Below are positions 35,615 to 52,584 of a stretch of DNA of 64,000 bases, piece after piece. Each line of letters starts with the position of its first letter. Position 1 is the first letter of the stretch. The stretch is taken from positions 1,506,437 to 1,570,436 of the forward strand of contig NZ_JH600070.1 in the NCBI RefSeq assembly GCF_000245015.1. Reading direction: 5' to 3'. Below the pieces are notes generated by a model. It saw only the letters and a list, made by a program, of their open reading frames with translations, was not told the origin of the DNA and searched no databases. Made by a program: the position numbers and the translations under genes. Source of the DNA: Beggiatoa alba B18LD. GTDB taxonomy: Bacteria; Pseudomonadota; Gammaproteobacteria; Beggiatoales; Beggiatoaceae.

Positions 35615-38600
35615 TTAAGAGGCATTCATCATTAATTGTTGGCGTGCTTCTTTGGCTCGTTCTATCGCAAGTTGTAAGTCAGCCGCGAGTACAGGTTTTG
35701 TGATGTAGTCTTGCATACCCGCAGCGAAACATTTTTCACGGTCTTCTTTCATGGCATTGGCTGTCATGGCAATAATCCAAGGTCGCTCTGATTCTTGCCA
35801 CGTTTCAATAATAATGCGTGTTGCTTCTAACCCATCCATTTTTGGCATTTGCATGTCCATCAGTACAATGTCGTAGTTTTTTGCACGTAATACGGTTAAT
35901 GCATCTAAGCCATCTGTTGCGGTATCTGCTTGATAACCCAGTTTTTTAAGTTGTAGTAATCCAACTTTGCGATTAACGGCATTGTCATCTACTAGCAGAA
36001 TGTTTAAAGAGCTAATATTGGTAACGGCAGGCGTTGGCAGGGTGACAGGTTCAGGAATAGCAACAGGTTGTGTTTGATTCATGGGGGTTGGTGAGACAGC
36101 TTCTAAGGCTTGTAAGTAAACATCTAGTAAACGTCTAGGACGGATTGGTTTCGTTAAGCAGGCAAAGGCTAATGATTGACGTTGGGTTTTTACATATAAA
36201 TTGGTGAGCGCAATCACAGGGCAGGTTAGTTTCAATACGGCTTCAGGAATATCGCCCAGTGTAATGTCTATCAGGGCTAAATCGATGGGAGTTTGTAGTG
36301 CTGTGGTAACGTCAGTAATCACATGCATTCCCCAGCATTGGCTTTGTTCTTGTAGTAAGACTTGATTGCTGGGCAGTAAGTGGGTGAGTAAAACTGTTTT
36401 ACCTTGTAAACGGGGATGTTTATCGTATAAAACTTGTTGTGGCTGATTTTGTGCTATCGTTGCTTGAATCGTAAAATGAAATGCTGAGCCAATTCCTAAC
36501 TCGCTTTCAACCCAGATTTGTCCTTGCATAAGTTCACATAGACGTTTGCTTATCGCAAGTCCTAGTCCTGTACCGCCGTATTTGCGCGTTGTTGATGCAT
36601 CGGCTTGGGTGAAGGATTGGAATAGATGTCCCAGATGGTTTGGGGCAATGCCGATGCCTGTATCTTTAACAGTGAATTGAATTTGTTGTTGATTATCTTC
36701 AGTTTTAGCTTGTATATATAGTTGTATTTCCCCTTGTTCGGTAAATTTGACCGCATTACCGAGAAGGTTAATCAAAATCTGTTTTAAACGAATGCTGTCG
36801 CCAATGATGCTTTGTGCTACGTTGGCATCCATCCGATAGACAATGTTAAGTTGTTTTTCTGCAACTCGGCTACTGATTAAATTCAGGGCATCTTCAACGC
36901 AAACACGTAAATCAAACTCACGTTTTTCTAAAATTAATTTATTTGCTTCAATTTTTGAAAAATCTAAAATGTCATTAATTAAGGTCAGTAAGGTATTGCT
37001 ACTGGTACGAATGATATTTAAATATTCTTTTTGTTCTTCATTCAGCGGTGTTTCATCTAAAATATTGGTAATTCCGACAATTGCATTCATGGGAGTACGA
37101 ATTTCATGGCTCATATTTGCTAAAAATGCAGATTTGGATTCGGTTGCTTGTAAGGCCACTTGTCGAGCAACGGCTAGTTTTTGATTTTCCTCTTCTAAAC
37201 GTTGATTTAATTCTTGAATAGATTGATTAGCTTGAGCAAGTTTTTCTGTCCGCTGTTCGACTTTTTCCTCTAAATTGGCATATAGCCGTGCATTCTCTAT
37301 AGAAATAGCCAGTTGACTTGCAATAAGTTGTACGAGTTCTAAACGGTCAGCCGTAAAAACAGCATTACTGAGATTATTTTCTAAATAAATAATAGCAATC
37401 AGTTTTCCCTGATGAATCACAGGGCTACAAAGAATTGATTTAACTTGTTGAGCTTGTATATAACGATCCGTGTTATATAAATTATCTTCTTGTGCATTAT
37501 CAATAATTTTAGGTTGACGGGTATAAATAACCTGTTGAATTAAAGGCACAGGTAACACAGAAATTTCTTGTTCTGAAGTCTTTTTGACAGGGTGCGAAGG
37601 CATGATGACTAAATTTTGCGTGTTACTATGCGCTTCGATATACCACTGGTTATTTTTCTCGAGTAAGAGCATCCCATGTTGCGCCCCCGCATTTTCCATG
37701 ACGATGCTGATTAATTTTTTAAGTAAGCGGGCTAATTGTATTTCTTCCGATAAACTGCGCGAGGCTTTGATAATTGTACTTAAATCAAGGCTATCTGATG
37801 CAGAACCGCGACGAGTATTATTATTGCTGGTGTTAATCGTCCGAGTGCGTTGTGAAATCGTCAGCGATTTCGCGGCTATTCCTAAGCTTAGTTCTGGGTA
37901 GCGGAGCTTTAATACTTCTAGTTTTGCGGTAGCTCCCCAAAGTTGATAGAGGTAAAAGGCTTCTTTGATATAAGTCGCACTGATATTGCTATCCGCTTGT
38001 TGTTGCCAAAAATGGGCATAGCGTTCACAAATTAAGCCTTCTTCGTGACGAAAATGATTTTTCTTCGCCAAGGTCATTGCCTGCTTATAGTATTGAATTG
38101 TTTTAGGAATATTTTTATCTAAACGCGCTTGTTCTGCTTGAATCAGGGCGTAACGGTGGGCGTTATTCATGGGAGCATGTTTTGCCCATGTTTTAATATT
38201 TCTCACATTTTCGCGTAATGCACGGGCATATTGTTGTTGGGCTTTTTTATCGCCTGTTTGCATTAAGGCGAGGCGAGCTAAGGCACTGTAAAAGTGGAAA
38301 ACAGTGCTATGAAACATGGAGGCAATCCCCATCGGGTTGACTTGTTCTGCATAGTTAACAACAAGGTCATACCGTTCAAACCAGTAGCACAACATAATTT
38401 TATGTACGTATAAAAATGCTAATGCAGTAATGTCATTTGCATGGGTATGAATCGGTAGCATTTTGGTTTCGTCGTAGGCTTCACCGACTAATAACCACGG
38501 TTGTTGTTCATTAGCACCCCGTAAATTTAAAATCGTTTGTAGAACAATCTGATTGTAATATAAAGGTGTTTGTTGCTGGATTTGGTCGATTGCCATGACA

Positions 38601-41600
38601 TATTTTGCAGTTTCTTGCGTCAATTCTTCGAGCGTGTGTCCTGCAAAAAAGCTGTAATTGCAATACATGAAAATCGAATAGCCTGCGAATTCTAATTCGC
38701 CTGTATCGACACCGACTTGATAGGCTTCTAATAGCGGGGCTAAGGTTTCTTCTAATGCAGCCTCCCAGTGCCAGACGAAATTGTAAACCATGAAATAGGT
38801 TCGGCATTTTAACTCGTTGGCGTTAAAATCTTCTAAAACTTGTAACGCGAGTTTGCCAAAACGATGCCCCGTGCTGATGTCTCCAATAACGCCGCATAAA
38901 ATCAGACCATAACTCGCGTAGGCAAACGCTGAAATAGGACTATTTCCCCGTTGTACCGAAAAACTCATCAATTTAATCGACGTTAAAATCATTTGTTTCG
39001 TATCTGCGATATAAGCGGCGGAATAGATACGATTCATAATCCGCATAACGGCTAAGTCGTGCGGTTTGGTCGTGATGGGTAAATGACGTAGTTGCTCGAT
39101 ATTTTTACCCAATAAGATAAAGCGTGCACGGTAAATATCTCGCAATATATGCAACATACTGGTTTTTTTAGGAAAGAAAACACCTAGCAGACGTAAAACA
39201 TCTAATGCCAATTCAATGGCTTTTAATGGCTGATTTTGCGCCATAAATGCCTGAATTTGAATTTCGTAAATTCTAACTTTATCTAATAAATCATGGGAAT
39301 GTTGTAAAACCAATGCTGCCCACTGATTCATTTGTTCATAATCGCCATTTAAAAAAGCGGCTTCAGTGGCTTCTACATATAAATTCAGGCTGAGGGGGTA
39401 ATCTGTTGTCCACGTATCTGCGGGTAGCAAAGATAAGCCATGTTGTAAGTAGGACAGTGCAGGCTCGTAAGCTGCGGAGCTTTTTGCGGTTTTTCCCGCC
39501 ATTAAATTTAATTCGGCGAGACGTTTGCGCTCGTTGGCTTGTTCAATCAGTTTTTCAGCGCGGTTTAAATGGTTGACAATATCAAATAAGCGTTCTTCTA
39601 ATTCAACGGTTGAGCTGTTTTCTAGCAATAATCGTCCAACTTGTAGATGTGTGGCGTTTTTTTGCGTTTCATCGATAAGTGAATAAGCGGCTTGTTGTAC
39701 ACGGTCATGGATGAAACGGTAAAGCGGAATTAATGCGCCGATTTGATTATCAATTTCTACAGAATCTAATTCTTTTGTAACAATATTATTATAATCACTG
39801 ATTTTATTAACAAATTTATAAATATTGCCTAATGGCAAAATTAATTCTTCTCGCAAAGCTTGCCATAATGCTTCTGCTGTTTCTGTCAACGATTTTTGAT
39901 AAACGATAGAGAGGGTTTTTAAATCAAATTGATTACCAATACACGCTGCAAGCTCTAAAACAACTTGACTTTCAGGCGGTTGTTGTTTGATTTTTTTCAC
40001 CATTAAATCAATGACATTATCGCTAATAGTGGCTTGTTGCATTTGCTCTAAATGCCATTGCCATGTTCCATTGACTTTATCGAAAAAGATTGCTCCTGAA
40101 TGATGAAACATATGGAGCAATTGATTTAAAAAGAATGGATTGCCTAAGGTTTTTTCCCAGCATAATTGAGCGACAGGAATAACTTCTATCGGGGTTGATT
40201 TCAAACTATCGGCAATTAACTGCATCACATGCGGTAAAGCAAGCGGTTTAAGGGTAATGGTATTGACTTGTATGCCTAACTGCTCAATGTTTTTGAGCGT
40301 AAGCATTAAGGGATGAAATTCATCAACTTCATTGTCACGATATGCACCAATAATAAAAAGATGATGCTGTTTTTCATCGCCCATTAATAATTCTAATAAT
40401 TGCAGGGTTGCCGTATCCGCCCACTGTAAGTCGTCTAGGAAAATAACGAGGGGCTGAGTTGCTGAAAAAGCACTGATGAAATTGAGTAAAACGAGATTAA
40501 AACGGTTACGGGTCGCACTGGGGGATAATTCAGGGACGGGCGGTTGCGTGCCAATGATTTGCTCAATTTCAGGGACGACATCGATAAGAACTTGTCCATT
40601 AGGACCTAAATAACTGCTTAATTTTTCGCGCCACAGGATTAACTGATTGTCGCTTTCAGTTAATAATTGGCGCACTAAACCGCGAAAGGCTTGGAAAATA
40701 GAATCATAGGGAATATTGCGTTTAAATTGGTCAAATTTCCCACTGACAAAATACCCGCGTTTTTTTACAAAGGGTTTATGTACCTCGTGTACTAATGCGG
40801 ACTTCCCTATCCCTGAATAGCCTGCAACCAGCATTAATTCTGCTCCCCCCTGACTGACACGGTCAAAACTATCCAGCAATACATCAATTTCCATCTCACG
40901 TCCGTATAGTTTTTCGGTGATTTGGAAATAGCTGGAGGCATCTTTACTGGCAAGGGGAAAATTTTCTATATGCCCCGTTTCTTCTTGCTGGACGAGACAT
41001 TTGTGTAAATCTACTTGTAAACCGTATGTACTTTGATAACGATTTTCAGCCGTTTTTTCCAATAACCGCATGATAATCGCTGATAAGACATAGGGAATAT
41101 TAGGATTAATATCGATGGGCGCGGGGGGAATTTTGGCGATGTGACAATGCACCCATTCCATTGCGTCATGGGCTTCAAAGGGCAACCGTCCTGTTAAGAC
41201 TTCATACCATGTAATGCCTAGAGAATATAAATCGGTTCGATAATCAACGCTACGATTCATCCGCCCTGTTTGTTCAGGGGATATGTAGCATAAGTTGCCT
41301 TCTAGGGTATCTAAACTGCAAATCTCTTGCGTTTCGCGTGATAATTCTGTCGCAATTTCAAAATCAATTAATTGTATTTGTCCTGTTTTTTCATTAATAA
41401 TAATATTAGAAGGGTTAATATCTTTATGAATAATATTACATTGATGCAATTCTCCTACAATTTCGGTGAGACGAATGGCAAATCGTAAAAATTGATGAAT
41501 ATCATTTTTATAAATCTTTAAAAGCTCGCTCAGGGCTTTACCGCCAATATCTTCAAGTACCATGACCCATGTATTTTTATAGGCAAGCAAATCATAGGCA

Positions 41601-41794
41601 CGGATAAACCCCGCATGACTGTTTAAGCGACGGGTTAAATAATACTCGCGTTGAAATTGCGCAATTTCTTTCGGTGATGGATGAGGATTACTTAACACTT
41701 TGCAAATAATAGGTAATTGATCACTATTACGATATCCTCGATAAATTTGTGTATAAACACTATCTGATAACTTTTCAAGTAATGTGTAACCCAA
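35615..41794 (-). CDS. Ser/Thr kinase-AAA ATPase-histidine kinase-receiver hybrid (start disrupted by an IS)
   Basis: 2059 residues. Order: Ser/Thr kinase (about 1-260) with IIHKDINPSN and LIDFEIA, the latter carrying DFE in place of DFG; AAA/STAND-type ATPase with GYSGIGKSAL near 320 and VIFLDDLQWAD near 450; a long helical region with TPR-like repeats to about 1300; GAF (about 1365-1500); HisKA with SHEIRTPMN near 1560; HATPase (about 1660-1775); a degenerate receiver (about 1795-1900, lacking the acidic pair); a full receiver with LLVDDN and VLMDMQMP (Asp about 1978). This is the class sometimes called trifunctional kinase/ATPase/sensor kinase. It probably integrates several inputs and autophosphorylates on His then Asp. 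The frame opens with TTG at the IS5 junction (41794); the original ATG and Shine-Dalgarno lie beyond the insertion (42731-42742). Confidence 0.85.
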   Translation of the reverse strand: MGYTLLEKLSDSVYTQIYRGYRNSDQLPIICKVLSNPHPSPKEIAQFQREYYLTRRLNSHAGFIRAYDLLAYKNTWVMVLEDIGGKALSELLKIYKNDIHQFLRFAIRLTEIVGELHQCNIIHKDINPSNIIINEKTGQIQLIDFEIATELSRETQEICSLDTLEGNLCYISPEQTGRMNRSVDYRTDLYSLGITWYEVLTGRLPFEAHDAMEWVHCHIAKIPPAPIDINPNIPYVLSAIIMRLLEKTAENRYQSTYGLQVDLHKCLVQQEETGHIENFPLASKDASSYFQITEKLYGREMEIDVLLDSFDRVSQGGAELMLVAGYSGIGKSALVHEVHKPFVKKRGYFVSGKFDQFKRNIPYDSIFQAFRGLVRQLLTESDNQLILWREKLSSYLGPNGQVLIDVVPEIEQIIGTQPPVPELSPSATRNRFNLVLLNFISAFSATQPLVIFLDDLQWADTATLQLLELLMGDEKQHHLFIIGAYRDNEVDEFHPLMLTLKNIEQLGIQVNTITLKPLALPHVMQLIADSLKSTPIEVIPVAQLCWEKTLGNPFFLNQLLHMFHHSGAIFFDKVNGTWQWHLEQMQQATISDNVIDLMVKKIKQQPPESQVVLELAACIGNQFDLKTLSIVYQKSLTETAEALWQALREELILPLGNIYKFVNKISDYNNIVTKELDSVEIDNQIGALIPLYRFIHDRVQQAAYSLIDETQKNATHLQVGRLLLENSSTVELEERLFDIVNHLNRAEKLIEQANERKRLAELNLMAGKTAKSSAAYEPALSYLQHGLSLLPADTWTTDYPLSLNLYVEATEAAFLNGDYEQMNQWAALVLQHSHDLLDKVRIYEIQIQAFMAQNQPLKAIELALDVLRLLGVFFPKKTSMLHILRDIYRARFILLGKNIEQLRHLPITTKPHDLAVMRIMNRIYSAAYIADTKQMILTSIKLMSFSVQRGNSPISAFAYASYGLILCGVIGDISTGHRFGKLALQVLEDFNANELKCRTYFMVYNFVWHWEAALEETLAPLLEAYQVGVDTGELEFAGYSIFMYCNYSFFAGHTLEELTQETAKYVMAIDQIQQQTPLYYNQIVLQTILNLRGANEQQPWLLVGEAYDETKMLPIHTHANDITALAFLYVHKIMLCYWFERYDLVVNYAEQVNPMGIASMFHSTVFHFYSALARLALMQTGDKKAQQQYARALRENVRNIKTWAKHAPMNNAHRYALIQAEQARLDKNIPKTIQYYKQAMTLAKKNHFRHEEGLICERYAHFWQQQADSNISATYIKEAFYLYQLWGATAKLEVLKLRYPELSLGIAAKSLTISQRTRTINTSNNNTRRGSASDSLDLSTIIKASRSLSEEIQLARLLKKLISIVMENAGAQHGMLLLEKNNQWYIEAHSNTQNLVIMPSHPVKKTSEQEISVLPVPLIQQVIYTRQPKIIDNAQEDNLYNTDRYIQAQQVKSILCSPVIHQGKLIAIIYLENNLSNAVFTADRLELVQLIASQLAISIENARLYANLEEKVEQRTEKLAQANQSIQELNQRLEEENQKLAVARQVALQATESKSAFLANMSHEIRTPMNAIVGITNILDETPLNEEQKEYLNIIRTSSNTLLTLINDILDFSKIEANKLILEKREFDLRVCVEDALNLISSRVAEKQLNIVYRMDANVAQSIIGDSIRLKQILINLLGNAVKFTEQGEIQLYIQAKTEDNQQQIQFTVKDTGIGIAPNHLGHLFQSFTQADASTTRKYGGTGLGLAISKRLCELMQGQIWVESELGIGSAFHFTIQATIAQNQPQQVLYDKHPRLQGKTVLLTHLLPSNQVLLQEQSQCWGMHVITDVTTALQTPIDLALIDITLGDIPEAVLKLTCPVIALTNLYVKTQRQSLAFACLTKPIRPRRLLDVYLQALEAVSPTPMNQTQPVAIPEPVTLPTPAVTNISSLNILLVDDNAVNRKVGLLQLKKLGYQADTATDGLDALTVLRAKNYDIVLMDMQMPKMDGLEATRIIIETWQESERPWIIAMTANAMKEDREKCFAAGMQDYITKPVLAADLQLAIERAKEARQQLMMNAS

Positions 41795-41800
41795 TATAGA

Positions 41801-42721
41801 ACCGATTTGAAATGTTTAAAAAGAAGCGATTCGTTTAATCATGAGTCTGATAAAACACAGTTTCAGTTTAGCATTAGCATTCTCAAGAGTCCGTTCAAAG
41901 TTCTTAACTAAGGACTTACATCGCTCAACCCAAGCATTAGAACGTTCTACTACCCATCTTGCTTTAACAGGTACAAAGCCTGTCTTACCTTGTGCTAACT
42001 TTTCTTGCTTATTGGGCTTGGGAGATAACTCAAACTGGATTTTACTCAGAATATCAGGATAAATTTTTTCTAACGCTTCCTGAATACGCACAGGATGATA
42101 GCCATTATCCAAGAGAATTGTCGTTTTAGGCATCTCTAAAGGTTTGTTCCTGAAGTAATCGATATTCTCCTTGAACAGCTCAATCAATCCTAGGTCATCA
42201 TTGATATTGGCTTTTGTACAGCGTGTAAACAAGGGCAAGCCTAAACTATCAACGGCTAAGTGTCTTTTAATTCCATTGGTAGCTTTGTAAAAGCAGAAGC
42301 CTTTACTTTGACGACTCGCCAGACAAGTATTTTTCACCGCTTGGGAATCTACTATGATTAGGCTTGTATATTGAGCGTTTTTTTTGATTGCGTGCGGGCA
42401 TTTTCATGTAAGCCTATCATCAGTTTATCGATAACTCCCGAAGCCCGCCATTGTTTATAATGCCAATAAACCGTTGAATAGGGAGGGAAGTCTTTAGGAA
42501 GGTCGCCCCAATGGCAGCCATTTTTGAGCTGATAAAGCATTGCATCAAATAGCAGGCGATAGCCCCATTTATGCGGACAGGTAAGCTTTTTTTTGGGCAA
42601 TAACGCATTTAAGAGGGGTTCAACCACTGCCCATTCTGCATCTGTTAGGCTACTTGTGTAAGGACTCTTTTTGTTTTGTTTTTTCATCTTTTACATTTTA
42701 TCTTAGACTTCAAATAGGTTC
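41801..42721 (-). mobile_element. IS5-family insertion sequence (921 bp)
   Basis: Terminal repeats GAACC(G/T)ATTTGAA at both ends, and TATA on each side (41797-41800 and 42722-42725), a 4-bp target duplication. Removing the element and one TATA restores the in-frame 5' end of the giant kinase gene (MLSILGYTLLEK). Its two transposase frames are on the minus strand. Confidence 0.88.
41816..42687 (-). CDS. IS5-family transposase, two frames joined by a -1 frameshift
   Basis: First frame 42358-42687 (109 residues) with SPYTSSLTDAEWAVVEPLL and GCHWGDLPKDFPPYSTVYWH, the DUF4096 N-terminal part. Second frame to the stop at 41816-41818 has the DDE part (in the shifted frame LIIVDSQAVKNTC, then ILLDNGYHP and RWVVERSNAWVERCKSLVKNFER). 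An A8 run (42379-42386 on the plus strand as T8) allows -1 slippage so that ...SKK continues as NAQYTSLIIVDSQAV. This is the usual layout for the IS1031/IS427 group. Probably capable of transposition. Confidence 0.82.
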
Positions 42722-42730
42722 TATAGACAG

Positions 42731-43516: not shown

Positions 43517-45415
43517 ATGCGTTTATCATGTCGGCGATTGTTTATTTTTTTAATTCTGCTGGCTTTAGTAATTGGTTTTTATTGGGTAAAGTCTTGGTAT
43601 GACTCAAAAATCGGTGTACCAGAATATCATCCCGTTGAAAAAACTGTTTTATTAGAACAAGGTTGGACAACAAAAGAGATTGATTGGTATCACTATGCGA
43701 CTCAAGGCAGTACCTTCTTTTTAGAAACCAGTTGGTTTATGGCATTAGAACAACCAACCCCCACCTTATTTGTCTCTGCTGCGCCATTTAGAGACAAAGC
43801 ATATTTAAGTGCTTATGGGTTTTTATTTGATGATGAGAAAACAACTTATAACCCTGATGGTTTACCCGTTGGATTTGCGATTGATAAAAATTATGTTGAT
43901 CCAATAACCAAAGAGAAAATGAGTGTTGTTGGTCTAAGCTGTGCGGCTTGTCATACGGGGCAGTTAAATTATAAAGGGACAGGTGTCCGTATAGAAGGCG
44001 GGCAAAGTTTGGCAAACTTTACGCAGTTTCAAAATGCATTAGGGTTTGCCATGATGTTGACTTATTACGACCCTTTCCGTTTTGATCGATTTGCTAAAAA
44101 TGTTTTAGGTGCTGATTACAGTAGCGATAATAAAGCAACGCTAAAAACTAAATTTCATGCTCAGTTAGAAAAAATTATTAAACAGGGCGAATTAGATACA
44201 AAATATGCGGCAACTGTAGAAAGTTTCGGACGTTTAGATGCATTAAATCGTATTGGCAATTTCGTTTTTGGTTTTGAATTATATGAAGGTAATTATCGCA
44301 CGATTGATGCCCCTGTTACGTTTCCCTATTTATGGGGTATTTCTTGGTTTGATTGGGTGCAATATAACGGCTCCGTCATGCAACCGATGACCCGTAACGC
44401 AGGCGAAGCCCTTGGCGTATTTGCTGAAATCAATTTAAAAGACCCCGCAAAAGGCTTTTTCTCGTCCACGCTTAATGTAGAAAATCTATATCAGTTTGAA
44501 AAACTAATCGGCGGCGAAAAACCCTTTGAAGGTTTAAAAGCCCCTGTTTGGCCTGAAGCCATTTTCGGCGCGATAGACCCACAAAAAGCGACAAAAGGGG
44601 CAGCCCTATATCGTGAAAAATGTATGACCTGCCATTTACCACCCGTAGATTCCGATGAAATTTGCAATGCGCAATATTGGACAGCCCCCAATAAATGGGG
44701 CGTGCGCCTGTTAAAACTGAAGTTAGTTAATGTTGACCTGTTAGGCACAGACAGTAATGTCGTATATGACTGGGCAAAACGCTTTGTTGAGACTAAACAA
44801 CTCGGTTTAGGCGTGGTTAAAGGCGAATTAGGATTACCGCTCACCGTAGAAAGTGCAGTTAATATTAAATATGATGAGTTAAAACTGACACAAGAACAAC
44901 GTGATGAATATAATGGTAAACGTGAAAATAAAGTCCGTTCCCCTTTATGTTACAAAGCGCGTCCTTTAGATGGCGTGTGGGCAACACCGCCTTTCTTACA
45001 CAACGGCTCAGTGCCTAACCTGTATCAACTCCTTTCCCCTGCAACACAACGGGCGACAACCTTCTACACAGGCAGTCGTGAATTTGACCCAAAATATATT
45101 GGCTATAACACAGACCCACTGAAAAAAGGCTTTAAATTTGATACCAACATTACAGGTAATCGCAACACAGGGCATGAATTCCGTTCTTTAACCAAAGATG
45201 AACAAGCGGGTTGGAATGGAAACTATCCCTATAAAGGCGTTTTAGGGGCAGAATTGACCGAACAAGAACGCTGGGAATTAATCGAGTATCTGAAAACATT
45301 AAAATCCCGTGATTTAACGCAACAAACAACGGCATGTCCGATTCCGATAGAACCTGCAACCGTTGCCAATAATTACGTTGAAGAACAAGGAGCAGTCGAT
45401 ACATGTCAACAGTAG
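43517..45415 (+). CDS. Di-haem cytochrome c, RoxA-like oxygenase/peroxidase family
   Basis: 632 residues from ATG 43517, with GGAG 8 nt upstream. An N-terminal hydrophobic segment (RRLFIFLILLALVIGFY) anchors or exports it. Two haem-binding motifs, CAACH (residue about 142) and CMTCH (about 369), are spaced as in RoxA-type rubber oxygenases and MauG/CcpA-like di-haem enzymes. Other landmarks: LETSWFMALEQP, LNRIGNFVFGFELYEGN, APVTFPYLWGISWFDWVQYNGS and ATPPFLHNGSVPNLYQLLSP. The family uses Fe-haem to activate O2 or peroxide in the periplasm or outside. It overlaps the following lipoxygenase start by 13 bp, so the two are translationally coupled. Confidence 0.85.
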   Translation: MRLSCRRLFIFLILLALVIGFYWVKSWYDSKIGVPEYHPVEKTVLLEQGWTTKEIDWYHYATQGSTFFLETSWFMALEQPTPTLFVSAAPFRDKAYLSAYGFLFDDEKTTYNPDGLPVGFAIDKNYVDPITKEKMSVVGLSCAACHTGQLNYKGTGVRIEGGQSLANFTQFQNALGFAMMLTYYDPFRFDRFAKNVLGADYSSDNKATLKTKFHAQLEKIIKQGELDTKYAATVESFGRLDALNRIGNFVFGFELYEGNYRTIDAPVTFPYLWGISWFDWVQYNGSVMQPMTRNAGEALGVFAEINLKDPAKGFFSSTLNVENLYQFEKLIGGEKPFEGLKAPVWPEAIFGAIDPQKATKGAALYREKCMTCHLPPVDSDEICNAQYWTAPNKWGVRLLKLKLVNVDLLGTDSNVVYDWAKRFVETKQLGLGVVKGELGLPLTVESAVNIKYDELKLTQEQRDEYNGKRENKVRSPLCYKARPLDGVWATPPFLHNGSVPNLYQLLSPATQRATTFYTGSREFDPKYIGYNTDPLKKGFKFDTNITGNRNTGHEFRSLTKDEQAGWNGNYPYKGVLGAELTEQERWELIEYLKTLKSRDLTQQTTACPIPIEPATVANNYVEEQGAVDTCQQ

Positions 45416-47058
45416 CCACCTTACCCAGCCAAGCCGACGCGGCAAAACGCCAAGCCTATTTAGAAAAAATGCGCGAAGTCTATGCGTATCAATATAGCTA
45501 TAACGATACATTTGCGACTGTGTTAAAGCTACCCGATGCGGAAAAACCTGATTGTGCTTATCAATATGGCTCGATTAAAAATTTATTGAGCCTATTGCCT
45601 AGCTTACCGCGCATTTTAAGCACGCAAATCAAACAATGGTTAAAGCGTCCAATTACGGGTTATCAAGACTACTTATTTTTTGGACGAGATTCTTTTCCAG
45701 ATACTCGTTTTATTGATAACTTTCAAAGTGATGCTTATTTTGGGTTACAACGTGCAATCGGCATTAACCACGTCACTCTACAAGGCGCGTCCTCAACTAA
45801 TTTACTGCCTACCAATTTTGATTTAACCCGCGTTCGTCAACTGTTTCCCCAACTCACCGCAGGCGACAACTTCGACAGCGCATTTGATAATCGTCGCCTA
45901 TTTTTTGTTGACTACGCCATGTTACAAGGGCTTGTCGACCACCAAGGCGAATATGCAGGACGCAAACAATATGTTACCGCCCCCCTTGTCCTCCTCTACC
46001 GCCAAGCCTCTGGAGTTTTACAACCGTTAGCAATACAACTAAACCAAATCCCCAGCGACACAAACCCCGTTTTCACCCCGCTAGACGGATTAGCATGGAC
46101 AGCCGCAAAACTTTACGCCCAAGTTGCTGATGTCAACTATCAAGAATTTATCACCCACGCAACTCGAATTCACTATCTAGTTGAAAGTTTTGTGATAGCT
46201 ACCCATCAACAATTGTATAAAACCCACCCTGTTTTCTTACTGCTTAAGCCAAATTTGGAATACACCTTAAGCGTAAACGTACATCATCTGTTTTTGAAAA
46301 ACAGCAAAGGCGTACCAGGAGATTTTGGGGCGCAATTAGCAGGTGATTACGACTCAATGGTCGAGCTGATGTCAACAGCATTTAAAACCTATGATTTTAC
46401 TGCCAATGCGCTACCGCTAGATATTGCAAAACGCGAAGTAGATTTACCTGAATTATTCTACCCCTATGCGGCTGAAGGGCGGAAAATTTGGGATTTAACT
46501 CAAGCCTTTGTGTTAGATTACTTAAATCTTTATTATCCCAATACCAAAATACTGGCAGAAGATAACGAGATTCAAGCATGGGCACGCTTTATGGCGGATG
46601 ATGATGGTATGCGAATAAAAGGCTTCCCCAGCCGTTTTGAAACTGTGGAAGCCCTTGCACAAGCAGTCGGACAAATCATTTTTATTACCACTGCGCACCA
46701 TTCCAGCATCCACTACCCACAATATCTATTCTCAGGCTTTACCCCTGCGATGCCATTTGCCGCCTATGAACCTGCGCCGACAACTATTCATTGTGATTTA
46801 ATCAATCAAGAATACTTGCTCAATGCCTTACCCTTGCGTCAACCTTCAATGACACAAGCCTTTATTTTCTACCTAACTGATTTTCGTTTAGGACAGATGG
46901 GCAACTATCGCCTAGAAGCGAAAGCACAAACCTTGGTTAAAAACTACCGTGAAAAACTCGACGCGCTTGCAACACAGCTGAATGAGGACAGCACTAGCCG
47001 TGCTTATCCTTATATCTATCTAAATCCGAGCTATATTCCTAATTCAGTGATGGTATAA
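45403..47058 (+). CDS. Lipoxygenase
   Basis: 551 residues, catalytic domain only, with no PLAT domain and no obvious signal peptide. Non-haem iron ligands can be placed: His252 and His257 in the HATRIHYLVESFVIATHQQL segment, His433 in TTAHHSSIH, and His437 where many lipoxygenases have Asn. The C-terminal ligand is Val551 rather than the usual Ile (ending NSVMV). HPVFLLLKPNLEYTLSVN follows the first ligand pair, as in the family. Lipoxygenases add O2 to polyunsaturated fatty acids. Bacteria seldom carry such lipids, so the substrate may be foreign or the specificity unusual. Overlaps the di-haem cytochrome gene by 13 bp. Confidence 0.88.
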   Translation: MSTVATLPSQADAAKRQAYLEKMREVYAYQYSYNDTFATVLKLPDAEKPDCAYQYGSIKNLLSLLPSLPRILSTQIKQWLKRPITGYQDYLFFGRDSFPDTRFIDNFQSDAYFGLQRAIGINHVTLQGASSTNLLPTNFDLTRVRQLFPQLTAGDNFDSAFDNRRLFFVDYAMLQGLVDHQGEYAGRKQYVTAPLVLLYRQASGVLQPLAIQLNQIPSDTNPVFTPLDGLAWTAAKLYAQVADVNYQEFITHATRIHYLVESFVIATHQQLYKTHPVFLLLKPNLEYTLSVNVHHLFLKNSKGVPGDFGAQLAGDYDSMVELMSTAFKTYDFTANALPLDIAKREVDLPELFYPYAAEGRKIWDLTQAFVLDYLNLYYPNTKILAEDNEIQAWARFMADDDGMRIKGFPSRFETVEALAQAVGQIIFITTAHHSSIHYPQYLFSGFTPAMPFAAYEPAPTTIHCDLINQEYLLNALPLRQPSMTQAFIFYLTDFRLGQMGNYRLEAKAQTLVKNYREKLDALATQLNEDSTSRAYPYIYLNPSYIPNSVMV

Positions 47059-47070
47059 ATTACTAAACAC

Positions 47071-47110
47071 AGACCTGTTAGATTTTAAAAAATCTAGCAG
47101 GTTTTTTTTG
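47071..47110. terminator. Palindromic terminator after the lipoxygenase
   Basis: AGACCTGTTAGATTTT and its near-complement with T8, a divergent copy of the CCTAGCAGGTCT module. It ends the di-haem cytochrome-lipoxygenase transcript. Confidence 0.75.
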
Positions 47111-47293
47111 TCTGAATCAGGATTCACAGGATTTAAAACATTGTCTGAATCAGGATTTTCAGGATTAACAAGATTAGCAGGATTTAAAACCCTCAAACCA
47201 AAAAGTCAGGTGAATCACGCTTTTTAATTCTGCTAATTCTGAAAATTCTGTGAATTCTGATTCTGACAAAAAAAAACCTGCTAGATTCAAAAC
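47111..47293. repeat. TGTCTGAATCAGAATTC hairpin module cluster
   Basis: Two or more copies of the TGTCTGAATCAGGATT arm (near 47109, 47142) and the complementary arm near 47246-47268, together with a degenerate CCTGCTAGATT module that overlaps the end of the PhnD-like gene. No gene. Confidence 0.65.
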
Positions 47294-48169
47294 CTATCGC
47301 GCATCTAGGGCTTTTGCTTGCTGTAAAATTTCACGCAGTGAGTCGTAATCACTATCCGTTGCAGGAACAAATCCTGTAATATTCTTTCCAATCGCATTCA
47401 GAATTTTTTGTCCTTCGGGCAATTGATTTAATGTATATAGTGCTTGTTGTAATTGTTGAATTAAACGAATATCTAAATCACGACGGCTAACCAGTAAATG
47501 TGAGGACACGGCAGGAGACATCGCTAGTATTTTTAACCCCTTATCTTTATTTTCATCAAAGACTTCCGCAGGTAATGCACCAGCATCATATTCTCCCATT
47601 AGTACGCCATACATAACATTTCGATGATTATCTAAAAAATCATAAGCACTTAATTTATCAAGAGTAATTCCTGCTTGACTCAATACATAATAAGGGACTT
47701 TTGTCCCTAAATTCGAATTTTTTTCCCCAAATGCAATTTTTTTTCCAACCAATTGATTTAAATTCTGAATTGGGTTTTTTGTTGTGGTAAACAGCACGCT
47801 ATACAACGCGGGTTGATGATTAATGGTGTAACGGGCAAGTAATGGGACAGTGTGTTGATATTTATCAACCATTTCAATGTATAAGCTACCGCTCATAAAG
47901 GCTAAATCGAGTTTATCTTCTCCGACAAGTTGTAAATGGGTGCTGTAGTTACTTGCTGTGATACTAATCGGTATCCCTATTTGTTGCGTCAGGTAGTTCG
48001 TTAAAGGTGTGTACTTATTCAGGGCATCCGTTGCGGATAGGTAAGATAAGGGAAAGCCTAGGCTCAAACTTGCTGGTTTATCATCTGCATAGCTGACTGT
48101 TGATAAACAAGTATAACTCAATAAAAACAATAAACTATACAGCTTTCGTAGTAGGGTAATGTACATCAT
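47294..48169 (-). CDS. PhnD-like periplasmic binding protein
   Basis: 291 residues. Signal peptide MMYITLLRKLYSLLFLLSY ending STVSYA. PhnD/phosphate-phosphonate-binding fold: LSLGFPLSYLSATDALNKYTPLTNYL, LDLAFMSGSLYIEMVD, LVGKKIAFGEKNSNLGTKVPYYVL and YDAGALPAEVFDENKDKGLKI. No permease or ATPase gene nearby, so it is probably not part of a transporter but an input for the divergent hybrid kinase. The ligand could be phosphonate, phosphite, phosphate or another oxyanion. Its promoter is in the 317-bp divergent gap. Confidence 0.85.
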   Translation of the reverse strand: MMYITLLRKLYSLLFLLSYTCLSTVSYADDKPASLSLGFPLSYLSATDALNKYTPLTNYLTQQIGIPISITASNYSTHLQLVGEDKLDLAFMSGSLYIEMVDKYQHTVPLLARYTINHQPALYSVLFTTTKNPIQNLNQLVGKKIAFGEKNSNLGTKVPYYVLSQAGITLDKLSAYDFLDNHRNVMYGVLMGEYDAGALPAEVFDENKDKGLKILAMSPAVSSHLLVSRRDLDIRLIQQLQQALYTLNQLPEGQKILNAIGKNITGFVPATDSDYDSLREILQQAKALDAR

Positions 48170-48486
48170 AAGCCTCGTTTAAAGACAAAAAGGAATCAGT
48201 AAAGCCATGTCTTTTGTTGCTGATGGATATTGCTATTGTGCAGAAAAGTCGTTGTGTATTAAAGAAACCATTGGTTATTTTGTCCGAATTTTTTTAAATC
48301 GGTCAAACTATCTTCTAAATGTATAGTTATCATTTGTTTTATTTAACTTTATTTGGTTTAACGTATGGTATTAAAACTGCATGAGTTTTATTTTATAACG
48401 ATAATAAAGATAAAATTTTTTCAGAAATTAGATGAAATTATGATAAACACGATAAATGGTTGGCTTAGTACAAACTGGGGCGTGCA
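48170..48486. other. Divergent promoter region
   Basis: 317 bp, very AT-rich, between the PhnD-like gene and the hybrid kinase. No repeat module, RNA gene or clear operator was seen; presumably both promoters are here. Confidence 0.5.
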
Positions 48487-51400
48487 ATGAAACGAGGGTT
48501 CTTTTTGCAACAAAAGCTTGCTGTTAAGCAATCAGTTCTTGTTTTGTCCGTTGCAATTCTTTTAGGGTTTATCATCAGTGTGTCGCTGGTCTTTTGGGAT
48601 TTTATTAATACACGTCAATCTATTGATGATATTGCTCATCAATTGTTAAACGCGATAAAAGGTACTGCCATTCGAGCGTGTTATACGATAGACACCGCGT
48701 TAGCGGGAGAAGTTTTAGACGGTTTAATGCAATTTCATGCCATTGAGTATGCAAAATTACAAACAGAGCATGGGGAGATTCTAGCCGAGCGCACTCGTCT
48801 CAAAATAGGGCAAGATAGCAATAATTATTTTCTAATGCTCTTGTTTGGCGAGCATATTCCTTTTCATATCCCTTTAAATTATCTGAACCCCCATACACAG
48901 AAACAAGAATTCGTCGGTGATTTAACGATTATATTACAAGGGTCTGTTGCGGGGCATAATTTTTGGCATCGTACTTTAGCAGAGCTATCATTTGGAATTT
49001 TGAGAAGTTTGTTATTAGCGATTGCCTTATTAATGATATCGCGACAAATGACAACTAAGCCATTAACAAAAATTGTTGATGCGTTAAAACAAATCAATTT
49101 AGCCACATTGCCAGAGACAAACGCACAATTAAGCTGTTTTCCCAGTCATCAGCAAGATGAAATTGGCGAGTTAATCCATTCTACGAATGCCTTATTAACA
49201 GAAGTTGCTTATCGAGCACAACAATTATTAGCCAGTGAACGACGGTATCGCTTAACCTTAGTGGCAGTTAATGATGGGATTTGGGACTGGGATTTAATTC
49301 ATAAACAAGTCGTTTGGAATGCCCGTTGTTATGAAATGTTGGGATATTCTACGGATACATTACCTATTAATACTCATCAGTGGCAAAACCTGTTACATCC
49401 TGATGATAAAGCTGTCACGCTTGATATTTTGCGTGCAAAAGCGAAAAACGGGGAATCGTTTTGTATTACATTTCGCTTGAAAACCAATGCGGATACATGG
49501 TTATGGGTTGAGGGGCGCGGGCAAGTTATTGAATGGCTTGATAAACGAGCAATACGGATGTTAGGAACACTAACAGATATTTCTGCGCGTAAACAAACAG
49601 AATTAGCCCTGCGTGAGAGTGAATCATATAACAAAATTTTATTTGCAGGTTCTTATATTCCTTTGATTGTTTTAGACCCTGATACAAAATGTTTTATTGA
49701 TTGCAATACTGCTGCGGTCAACATTTATGGATTTAAACAGCGTGAAGAGGTATTAGGTAAAACGCCTTTAGATGTCTCTGCACCGTATCAATTAGATGGT
49801 TCACCTTCAGCATTAATCGCTTATGCGCATTTAGAACAATGCATTATTAATCAATATCATGTATTTGAATGGCAACATCAGCGTACTAATGGGGAATTGT
49901 GGGAAGCTGAAGTACATTTAATGTCTTTTCAACATAACGGACGGCAATTAATTCAATTTAGCTTGCAAGATATTACTCAACGTAAACAAACTGAACTGGC
50001 TTTGCGCTTGAGTGAAGCCCGTTATCGCTCCATTGCGAAGAATTTTCCAAATGGCGCGATTTTATTATTTGATCATGAGTTACGTTATGTATTAGCGGAT
50101 GGCATGGGGTTAGCCGAAACTGGTTTAGACCAGATACAGATGGAGGGGAAAACGTTAAAAGAAGTTGTTTCTTATCAATTGGCTGAAGTATTAGAACCGA
50201 TTTATCGACGTGTATTAGAAGGGGAATCCATCGTGATGGAAACGCCTTGCAATGAGTTTGTTTATATTGCTTCTTATACACCATTACGTGATGAAGAAGG
50301 TCAGATTATTAATGGGATGGTTGTTACCCAAAATATTACCCAACGAAAACAGGCAGAACAGTTATTAGAAGGGATTTTAAATAGCTCCATGAATGGCATC
50401 ATGGCATTCCAATGTATCAGAAACGACTTGGGAGAAGTTATTGATTTTGAAATTATTTTAGCCAATGAAATGGCAGTTAATTTAGTCACTGCCCGCAAAA
50501 CAGATTTATTAGGAAAACGCTTTTTAAACATTGTTCCCCATAGTTTAGTAACAGGGATGTTTGCAAACTATGTCGCTGTTGCTGAAACAGGCGCACCGTT
50601 AGATAAAGAATGGTTCTTCGGATTTGCACAACAAACACCAGCATGGTATCACCTGATTGCGGTGAAATTAAGTGATGGATTTACAATTACTTTTCAAAAT
50701 ATTAGCACGCGCAAACAAATTGAAATGACCTTACATAAAACCACACGTCAATTAGAAGGGATTTTACGCCATAGTCCCGCGCTGATTGGTGTTTTAAATG
50801 CACAAGGTCAATACCTATTAGTTAATAAAGCATTAGAAGATTTATGGCAACTACCAACTTATCGCTTGTTAGAACATACGGTTCAAGAATTAATCAACTC
50901 CAATGTTATCAATGAACGCCTTACTCGAGTTGTCAAGGATAAAGAATCATTTACCGTAGAAGATGCATTGCCTATTTCCAATCATGAACGTTATTTTGTT
51001 ACGACCTTATTTCCGATTGAAATGGAACAAGAATGCTTAATCGGTGCAGTTGCCTTAGACATTACGGAACGGAAATTAGCTGAACAAGCCTTACAACAAG
51101 CGAAAGAAACCGCTGAAATTGCAAATCATACAAAAAGTGCTTTTTTAGCAAACATGAGTCATGAACTACGTACCCCGCTGAATGGTATTTTAGGTTATGC
51201 ACAATTATTAATGCGAGATAATAGCTTAACTGATAATCAAAAGAATTTTGTCCATATCATACAAAAGAGTGGAGAATATTTACTCACTTTAGTCAGTGAT
51301 GTTTTAGATTTATCCAAGATAGAGGCGGGAAAATTAGAGTTAGTACCCAGTGATTTTTGCTTAACCGATTTTTTAAATGAAATCGTATTGTTATTTTCAC

Positions 51401-52584
51401 AACATTTACAACAAAAAGGGATTAATTTTATTTATCAACAAATTCCACCGCCAAGCTCTTTAGAAAACACCCCCCAGCCCAACATTTTCCCCCTGTTGGT
51501 ATATGCAGATGAAACTCGACTCCGCCAAGTTTTATTAAATTTATTAAGTAATGCTGCCAAATTTACCTTTAACGGCTACGTCTCTTTTAAAACGGTCTAT
51601 CACGATAATCATATTCGTTTCGAGGTAGAAGATACGGGCATTGGAATTCCTGCGGATAAAATTGAATCCATTTTTAGACCCTTCGAACAAATTCATAATG
51701 CAAAAACCCATAAAATTGAAGGAACAGGCTTAGGATTATCAATCAGCCGTCAACTGGTTGAAATGATGGGCGGACAATTAGAAGTACAAAGTGTGGTTGG
51801 TCAAGGCAGTGTATTCTGGTTTGAAATTGCATTAACAGTCAAAGAATATAAACAGTTACACCAACTAACGCCCCTTGTACAACAAGCCATTGGTTATACA
51901 GGCAAACGACGCAGTATCCTAATCGTTGATGATGCAAACAGTAATCGTGAACTATTAGTCAGTTTGTTACAGTCTTTAGGTTTTACCACTTTTGAAGCAA
52001 ATGATGGTCTTGAAGCCTTAGCACGTGTACAAGCACATCACCCTGATATTATCCTGATGGATTTAAAAATGCCTTATTTGGACGGCGTGCACTGCGTCAA
52101 GCAACTGCGCCAACAGCCTGAAAGTGCAGGCTTAATTATTATCGGAATTTCAGCGACCGTCTTTACAGAAACACGAGAAGAGTTTATGGCAGCAGGCTGT
52201 AACGACTTTTTAGAAAAACCAATCAATATCAATCAACTACTAGAAAAAATTCAATTCTATTGTCAACTTGAGTGGGTTTATGACCCATTACATTCCAATA
52301 AAGTGGAATCACATGACTATGATGAAGCCACAATGAATGTTTTACCTATTGCCAGCTTAGACGAATTATGGGCATTAGCGAATATTGGCAAAGTAAAAGG
52401 ATTTATTGAAACTGCGGAAGACTTAGCAACAAAGTATGTTGAAGCGAATGCCTTTTTAAGACACCTAATGACACTCGCTCGCTGTTTTGAACTAGAACAA
52501 TTAAAACAATTATTGATAGATGTACGTGAAAAACAGTTATCTGCAAAAAAACTTCCTCAACCTAAAGAAAATCATCAGCAATAA
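48487..52584 (+). CDS. Multi-PAS hybrid histidine kinase with receiver
   Basis: 1365 residues. Two membrane segments (about 15-38 and 165-190) enclose an extracytoplasmic sensor, followed by HAMP (about 190-245), five PAS domains (about 250-870), HisKA with SHELRTPLNG near residue 890, HATPase (about 1005-1115) with DETRLRQVLLNLLSNAAKF and DTGIGIPADKI, and a receiver (about 1143-1258) with ILIVDDANSN and IILMDLKMP (phospho-Asp about 1191). No Hpt domain. Divergent from a PhnD-like binding protein that could bind its periplasmic sensor. A small gene follows 17 bp after the stop. Confidence 0.92.
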   Translation: MKRGFFLQQKLAVKQSVLVLSVAILLGFIISVSLVFWDFINTRQSIDDIAHQLLNAIKGTAIRACYTIDTALAGEVLDGLMQFHAIEYAKLQTEHGEILAERTRLKIGQDSNNYFLMLLFGEHIPFHIPLNYLNPHTQKQEFVGDLTIILQGSVAGHNFWHRTLAELSFGILRSLLLAIALLMISRQMTTKPLTKIVDALKQINLATLPETNAQLSCFPSHQQDEIGELIHSTNALLTEVAYRAQQLLASERRYRLTLVAVNDGIWDWDLIHKQVVWNARCYEMLGYSTDTLPINTHQWQNLLHPDDKAVTLDILRAKAKNGESFCITFRLKTNADTWLWVEGRGQVIEWLDKRAIRMLGTLTDISARKQTELALRESESYNKILFAGSYIPLIVLDPDTKCFIDCNTAAVNIYGFKQREEVLGKTPLDVSAPYQLDGSPSALIAYAHLEQCIINQYHVFEWQHQRTNGELWEAEVHLMSFQHNGRQLIQFSLQDITQRKQTELALRLSEARYRSIAKNFPNGAILLFDHELRYVLADGMGLAETGLDQIQMEGKTLKEVVSYQLAEVLEPIYRRVLEGESIVMETPCNEFVYIASYTPLRDEEGQIINGMVVTQNITQRKQAEQLLEGILNSSMNGIMAFQCIRNDLGEVIDFEIILANEMAVNLVTARKTDLLGKRFLNIVPHSLVTGMFANYVAVAETGAPLDKEWFFGFAQQTPAWYHLIAVKLSDGFTITFQNISTRKQIEMTLHKTTRQLEGILRHSPALIGVLNAQGQYLLVNKALEDLWQLPTYRLLEHTVQELINSNVINERLTRVVKDKESFTVEDALPISNHERYFVTTLFPIEMEQECLIGAVALDITERKLAEQALQQAKETAEIANHTKSAFLANMSHELRTPLNGILGYAQLLMRDNSLTDNQKNFVHIIQKSGEYLLTLVSDVLDLSKIEAGKLELVPSDFCLTDFLNEIVLLFSQHLQQKGINFIYQQIPPPSSLENTPQPNIFPLLVYADETRLRQVLLNLLSNAAKFTFNGYVSFKTVYHDNHIRFEVEDTGIGIPADKIESIFRPFEQIHNAKTHKIEGTGLGLSISRQLVEMMGGQLEVQSVVGQGSVFWFEIALTVKEYKQLHQLTPLVQQAIGYTGKRRSILIVDDANSNRELLVSLLQSLGFTTFEANDGLEALARVQAHHPDIILMDLKMPYLDGVHCVKQLRQQPESAGLIIIGISATVFTETREEFMAAGCNDFLEKPININQLLEKIQFYCQLEWVYDPLHSNKVESHDYDEATMNVLPIASLDELWALANIGKVKGFIETAEDLATKYVEANAFLRHLMTLARCFELEQLKQLLIDVREKQLSAKKLPQPKENHQQ

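Follow-up and report, generated by a model that had tools for sequence, protein, structure and literature searches.

Partnerships between lipoxygenases and haem proteins are found in cyanobacteria and fungi, where a catalase-related protein accompanies the lipoxygenase, and in plants, where the partner is CYP74. To our knowledge, bacterial lipoxygenases are rare and mostly have no known pathway, and oxylipins, established signals in Pseudomonas, are hardly so in other bacteria. In Pseudomonas aeruginosa, oleate is oxygenated by the 10S-dioxygenase PA2077, which depends on both of its haems, and PA2078 is a 7,10-diol synthase (PMC4496055); the diol-synthase activity is periplasmic, and its products exit the cell (PMC5155153). 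Here we describe a pair of overlapping genes of Beggiatoa alba B18LD that encodes a di-haem cytochrome c (CYT) and a lipoxygenase (LOX), and that lies in a stretch of 64,000 nucleotides, hereafter the window (contig NZ_JH600070.1, positions 1,506,437 to 1,570,436). The pair brings together two fatty-acid oxygenases, each of a known kind; no account of a lipoxygenase paired with a member of the CYT family, NF040606, was found in the open-access literature searched. The reading that we prefer, with a probability of roughly one half, is that CYT and LOX are made together as a two-enzyme oxylipin pathway, in which the hydroperoxide formed by LOX is converted by the di-haem CYT. Functional coupling of the lipoxygenase with the haem enzyme, which a preliminary description of this DNA had put forward, finds good support in the co-occurrence and adjacency of the two genes in five of five genomes, in the repeated assembly of the pair, and in the lipid-hydroperoxide-type neighbours that NF040606 genes have elsewhere.

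Two overlapping genes and their products

The pair consists of the following features, in window coordinates:

43517..45415, plus strand: CYT, di-haem cytochrome c of NCBIfam NF040606 (FadCcp/RoxA-like), 632 aa, with an N-terminal membrane anchor and a predicted periplasmic domain
45403..47058, plus strand: LOX, mini-lipoxygenase, 551 aa, no signal peptide
45403..45415, plus strand: overlap of the CYT end with the LOX start, 13 bp
47071..47104, plus strand: terminator-like hairpin with T tract, 15-pair stem, directly 3' of LOX

The CYT frame is open from 43358, and the ATG at 43517 was picked as its start because close relatives begin MxLxCRR at this Met. The genes overlap in related genomes as well, by 10 bp in both G001 and G441 and by 1 bp in G006. 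The hairpin, which comes from a pattern scan and belongs to a kind of site no commoner in the region than expected by chance, is the probable end of a two-gene CYT-LOX operon.

CYT is a member of NF040606 (di-heme-cytochrome C peroxidase), scoring 510.5 bits over the whole profile against a cut-off of 150. In the 632-aa numbering, its haem motifs are CAACH (C142-H146) and CMTCH (C369-H373), and it also carries a MauG-type FLHNGSV motif (H495) and an axial-ligand-like GH553. The earlier label "RoxA/MauG-like" stands at the superfamily level, given 60 bits to PF21419 and a match of 7.7e-23 to the RoxA structure 4b2n using a family profile, and falls for RoxA proper: the RoxA, RoxB and RoxC equivalog scores are 45.1, 55.2 and 45.4 bits, with cut-offs of 900-1000. 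CYT is not a classical bacterial cytochrome c peroxidase (CcP) or MauG either, with no CCP_MauG-type Pfam match and a length of 632 aa where 35-40 kDa would be expected.

The link between NF040606 and fatty acids comes from a Pseudomonas-like genome (G461) that encodes two tandem members of the family, of 485 bits (624 aa) and 525 bits (642 aa). Their CxxCH spacings (235 and 245), their motifs YRQH and GSHFNLPHD, and their pocket residues (ATGQS/AIGSI and LQS/VQW) agree with those of PA2078 and PA2077, respectively (PMC4496055), and because of these matches in sequence they are identified as the PA2078 (485 bits) and PA2077 (525 bits) orthologues. Since both score within NF040606, CYT shares a curated subfamily with characterised fatty-acid oxygenase and hydroperoxide-isomerase enzymes. 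CYT is not itself a close orthologue of either, as it falls in another clade of the tree and has different pocket residues.

LOX matches PF00305 at 3.1e-50 (172 bits, curated cut-off 23.6) and is thus a lipoxygenase; its closest structure in the PDB is the solved cyanobacterial (Cyanothece) lipoxygenase 5med (2e-66 over residues 17-550). Alignment with 12 bacterial lipoxygenases places the iron ligands at H252, H257, H433 and H437 together with the C-terminal V551. H252, H257 and H433 are invariant across the 13 aligned proteins; position 437 is His only in the five LOXs of the pair, the other eight bacterial lipoxygenases having Asn, one Gly. The Coffa (Ala/Gly) position is ambiguous in the alignment, and no reading of stereospecificity was drawn from it.

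These results bear out the reading frames with their 13-bp overlap, the two haem motifs and the four histidine ligands, all of which had been named beforehand. The earlier remark that the cytochrome is exported and the lipoxygenase lacks a signal peptide also holds: CYT begins with a strongly hydrophobic segment (19-residue hydropathy 2.3), LOX has no such segment, and a signal peptide is absent from LOX in all five genomes that carry the pair.

Distribution and ancestry of the pair

Genomes were sampled within Pseudomonadota, 43 from the order and 398 from the phylum, and searched genome-wide. In the order sample, PF00305 occurs in five genomes (G000, which is the window's genome, G001, G006, G010 and G441), full-length NF040606 occurs in exactly the same five, and the two genes are adjacent in every one of them. 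The pair, for which a neighbourhood search had been proposed, is thus not confined to this genome. Such a coincidence would have a chance of about 1e-6 if the genomes were independent; they are related, and the real evidence is therefore weaker. In G010 the gene order is reversed, with LOX first and CYT approximately 30 bp after it, and beyond these two genes the locus has nothing in common with the window, the flanks being different. Among the five genomes the paired proteins have diverged to 33-79% identity, with both genes intact throughout. The CYT of G006 (L008 4343-6859) carries an Ala-, Lys- and Glu-rich C-terminal extension of approximately 170 residues, without counterpart in other members.

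In the phylum sample, NF040606 was found in 38 of 398 genomes and LOX in four, with both present only in G000. None of 28 other LOX loci, from sphingomonad-type relatives, other gammaproteobacteria, and cyanobacterial, rhodococcal and enterobacterial plasmids, has an NF040606 neighbour; the plasmid-borne lipoxygenases of Acaryochloris, Nostoc, Rhodococcus, Pantoea and a Pseudomonas plasmid are among those lacking one. A contig scan with LOX returned a single locus, the G441 contig. As far as sampled, the pairing is a trait of Beggiatoaceae-type genomes, and it was not seen in the other groups covered.

The history of the pair was read from a tree of 35 CYT proteins (IQ-TREE). Four of the LOX-paired CYTs form one clade (100/100), and that of G010 belongs to a second (100/100), together with a solitary second CYT of G006 and a protein with a cytochrome P450 neighbour. 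The five LOXs form one clade (100/100). A single clade of all five LOX-paired CYTs has a log-likelihood lower by 185 and is rejected by the approximately unbiased (AU) test (p 7e-73), which was run after the first tree had suggested the split; with two CYT lineages, a single inherited CYT-LOX block is rejected as well. The pair has been assembled more than once, either because LOX twice became linked to a di-haem gene or because one partner was exchanged for another; either history argues for a working partnership between LOX and a di-haem enzyme of the NF040606 kind. CYT and LOX thus form a conserved operon pair, adjacent in relatives and not explained by one inherited block alone.

Genomic context of NF040606 and the proposed pathway

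The phylum sample contains 40 loci of NF040606. At 19 of these the gene of a small catalase-related haem protein lies on the same strand and within 400 bp, in several cases overlapping by 4 bp. The best solved match of this protein is 3e4w (2e-18), and 1u5u, the allene oxide synthase domain from coral, is matched as well (3e-10). Its distal His and proximal RxxxY are retained; most of these partners are exported, that of pNGR234a not. A P450 gene lies beside or near NF040606 in L079, L098, L083 and pMRAD01, and a patatin-type phospholipase is clustered with it in L088, L097, pNGR234a and an R. etli plasmid. Many loci are solitary, notably those of one large-genome genus (g145). By homology, these neighbours of NF040606 outside Beggiatoaceae are genes of fatty-acid release and hydroperoxide-processing types.

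Some of these clusters deserve description in their own right. On the symbiotic plasmid pNGR234a (L101, 3350-10861), a divergent di-haem protein, a catalase-related protein, a 232-aa unknown, an NF040606 di-haem protein and a patatin-like phospholipase are encoded together, a possible rhizobial oxylipin operon. Two gammaproteobacterial genomes (L088, 4352-10940; L097, 2335-8939) encode a patatin, an SMP-30/gluconolactonase-like protein, an NF040606 di-haem protein and a catalase-related protein. The literature searched, subscription journals lying outside it, contains nothing relevant on operons of di-haem, catalase and patatin genes or on a Beggiatoa lipoxygenase. The window's genome has a single Pfam catalase, which we take to be SrpA-like; it is small, has a signal peptide and lies away from the operon (L122, 1352-2364), and it was rejected as an operon-type partner.

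CYT and LOX probably act in one lipid-oxidation pathway. LOX would oxygenate a polyunsaturated fatty acid to a hydroperoxide, the substrate most likely coming from outside the cell, for example from phototrophs in mats; this outside source is proposed because the membrane desaturase PF00487 is absent from four of the five pair genomes, other desaturase families and polyunsaturated fatty-acid synthases not having been searched. On the periplasmic side, CYT would then convert the LOX hydroperoxide by isomerisation, by hydroxylation to a diol, or by a peroxidase-type reduction, much as PA2078 acts on the product of PA2077, and the CYT product would be able to leave the cell. The substrate, the order of steps, the product, the export route and any signalling role are what we infer here. 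That one enzyme makes a hydroperoxide and the other consumes it is only plausible, since NF040606 includes both a hydroperoxide-making dioxygenase (PA2077) and a hydroperoxide-converting isomerase (PA2078).

Pocket positions of CYT were mapped through the residue scheme of PMC4496055. By alignment, the distal pocket of the N-terminal haem is formed by A242, L243, R245 and I246, and the inter-haem position is Tyr283. At the position of Arg245, PA2077 has Ser, PA2078 Gln and RoxA Leu. The inter-haem residue is Tyr instead of Trp in each of the five LOX-paired CYTs, and their distal pocket has Arg instead of Ser; most catalase-paired members have the inter-haem Trp of PA2077. Judging from the sequence, Arg245 would suit peroxide (O-O bond) activation.

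Several observations weigh against conversion of the LOX product by CYT. Since LOX has no signal peptide and CYT is anchored with a predicted periplasmic domain, the two enzymes may occupy different compartments. CYT lacks, by alignment, the loop that bears the equivalent of RoxA Phe317, and its clade is separate from PA2077/PA2078. The single-sequence AlphaFold2 model of CYT has a mean predicted local distance difference test (pLDDT) score of 34, and the pocket residues rest on alignment only. Beyond PA2077 and PA2078, no activity of an NF040606 member was found in the literature searched. Finally, PA2077 oxygenates monounsaturated fatty acids, so that CYT could be a second, parallel dioxygenase.

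This last alternative, in which LOX would act on polyunsaturated acids and CYT on monounsaturated ones, as PA2077 does on oleate, the two together covering the whole unsaturated pool, is the one that survives best, although we consider it doubtful. It draws on the score of the PA2077 orthologue within NF040606, on the dependence of that oleate 10S-dioxygenase on both haems (PMC4496055), and on the PA2077-like Trp of most catalase-paired members, whose operons would be explained by a hydroperoxide-making di-haem protein followed by a hydroperoxide-converting catalase relative. The Tyr and Arg of all five LOX-paired CYTs argue against it, and a shared operon would account less directly for the repeated pairing if the two substrates differed.

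It is improbable, in our judgement, that CYT is a guard or redox partner of LOX, that is, a peroxidase of lipid hydroperoxides that either detoxifies what LOX makes or sets the hydroperoxide level at which the LOX iron stays active, with no defined oxylipin as the outcome. The family name, the MauG/CcP-type motifs and the frequency of a catalase-related protein as NF040606 partner are consistent with such a role, as is the endowment of G000 with only one small, exported Pfam catalase located elsewhere; however, the characterised members of the subfamily are biosynthetic oxygenase and isomerase enzymes (PMC4496055, PMC5155153), and neighbours such as patatin and P450 point to the release and conversion of lipids and not to plain detoxification. 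It is highly improbable that the genes adjoin by accident, or because they were transferred as one block, and that the enzymes work separately. In favour of this stand the sharing of only CYT and LOX with G010, whose flanks differ, and the rarity of genomes with both NF040606 and LOX outside the Beggiatoaceae type (1 of 398), but block transfer predicts one CYT lineage where two were found, and the order is reversed in one genome with both genes intact despite 33-79% identity.

Surroundings of the pair and comparison with known systems

Upstream of the pair lies a divergent gene:

35615..41794, minus strand: hybrid sensor kinase (Pkinase-AAA-GAF-HisKA-HATPase-receiver), a candidate regulator only

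The kinase gene adjoins CYT in four of the five genomes, all of the first CYT clade, with 71-83% identity in G001, G006 and G441, and it is not beside the pair in G010; a regulatory link to CYT-LOX is a guess. At its start lies an IS4/5-type insertion element (41797-42727; DUF4096 and DDE transposase) with near-perfect inverted ends, TAGAACCGATTTGAA...TTCAAATAGGTTCTA, which seems to have removed the first few codons of the kinase: relatives read MLSIAGYTLLEK, and here a TTG is followed by GYTLLEK. Downstream of LOX, the interval 47110-47275 contains short repeats of TCTGAATCAGGATTxxCAGGATT and their reverse complements; beyond it (47294-52584), two divergent genes, which may form a sensing pair, encode a PhnD-like periplasmic binding protein and a large hybrid sensor kinase.

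The preferred reading, that of a two-enzyme oxylipin pathway, lends itself to a wider view, which we offer tentatively and at somewhat less than even odds: NF040606 di-haem proteins would stand at the centre of a widespread, unrecognised class of oxylipin operons in bacteria, in which one partner can take the place of another, be it a catalase-related protein, a P450, a patatin phospholipase or a second di-haem protein. In the variant of the Beggiatoaceae, put together on two occasions, the partner would be a lipoxygenase proper. An oxygenase with non-haem iron and one with two c-type haems would there share a single new pathway, whose oxylipin might act as a signal linked to the neighbouring hybrid kinase. 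A lipoxygenase that has twice acquired a di-haem partner of the diol-synthase subfamily is a concrete, testable two-enzyme system; moreover, a family whose sole annotation is "di-heme-cytochrome C peroxidase", and which occurs in roughly a tenth of the Pseudomonadota genomes sampled (38/398), is now linked to lipid-hydroperoxide genes, which makes its function testable.

Compared with the rubber oxygenases RoxA and RoxB, CYT shares the PF21419 signature, two haems and a related sequence (4b2n), but reaches only 45-55 bits where the cut-offs are 900-1000 and has no Phe317 equivalent by alignment. LOX resembles the Cyanothece enzyme and other bacterial lipoxygenases in being small, with 5med as the closest solved structure; as the fourth protein ligand of its iron it has His437, a feature of animal lipoxygenases, where they have Asn, and its C-terminal residue is Val (Ala in G010) instead of Ile. 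The coral allene oxide synthase-lipoxygenase (AOS-LOX) fusion 3dy5 is among the structure matches, and with such partnerships the pair has in common a lipoxygenase genetically coupled to a haem protein that might act on its hydroperoxide; here, in contrast, the genes are separate and overlapping, and the haem protein concerned is a c-type cytochrome with two haems, unrelated to catalase or P450. The locus is therefore not a system of the AOS-LOX type, the only Pfam catalase of the genome being elsewhere. The pairs of NF040606 with catalase-related proteins in Pseudomonas and others have the same subfamily, a hydroperoxide-type partner by homology and sometimes overlapping genes, but their partner is a catalase relative, usually exported, and no lipoxygenase is present. 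With PA2077/PA2078, CYT shares NF040606 (510 bits, the orthologues 525 and 485), two CxxCH motifs, the HNGSV motif and export, and both loci are tandem gene pairs forming an oxylipin pathway, which for CYT-LOX is the reading proposed; CYT differs in its clade, in Arg245 and Tyr283, in a shorter haem spacing (227) and in an N-terminal anchor in place of a cleaved signal, and the second enzyme, there another di-haem protein, is here a non-haem-iron lipoxygenase.

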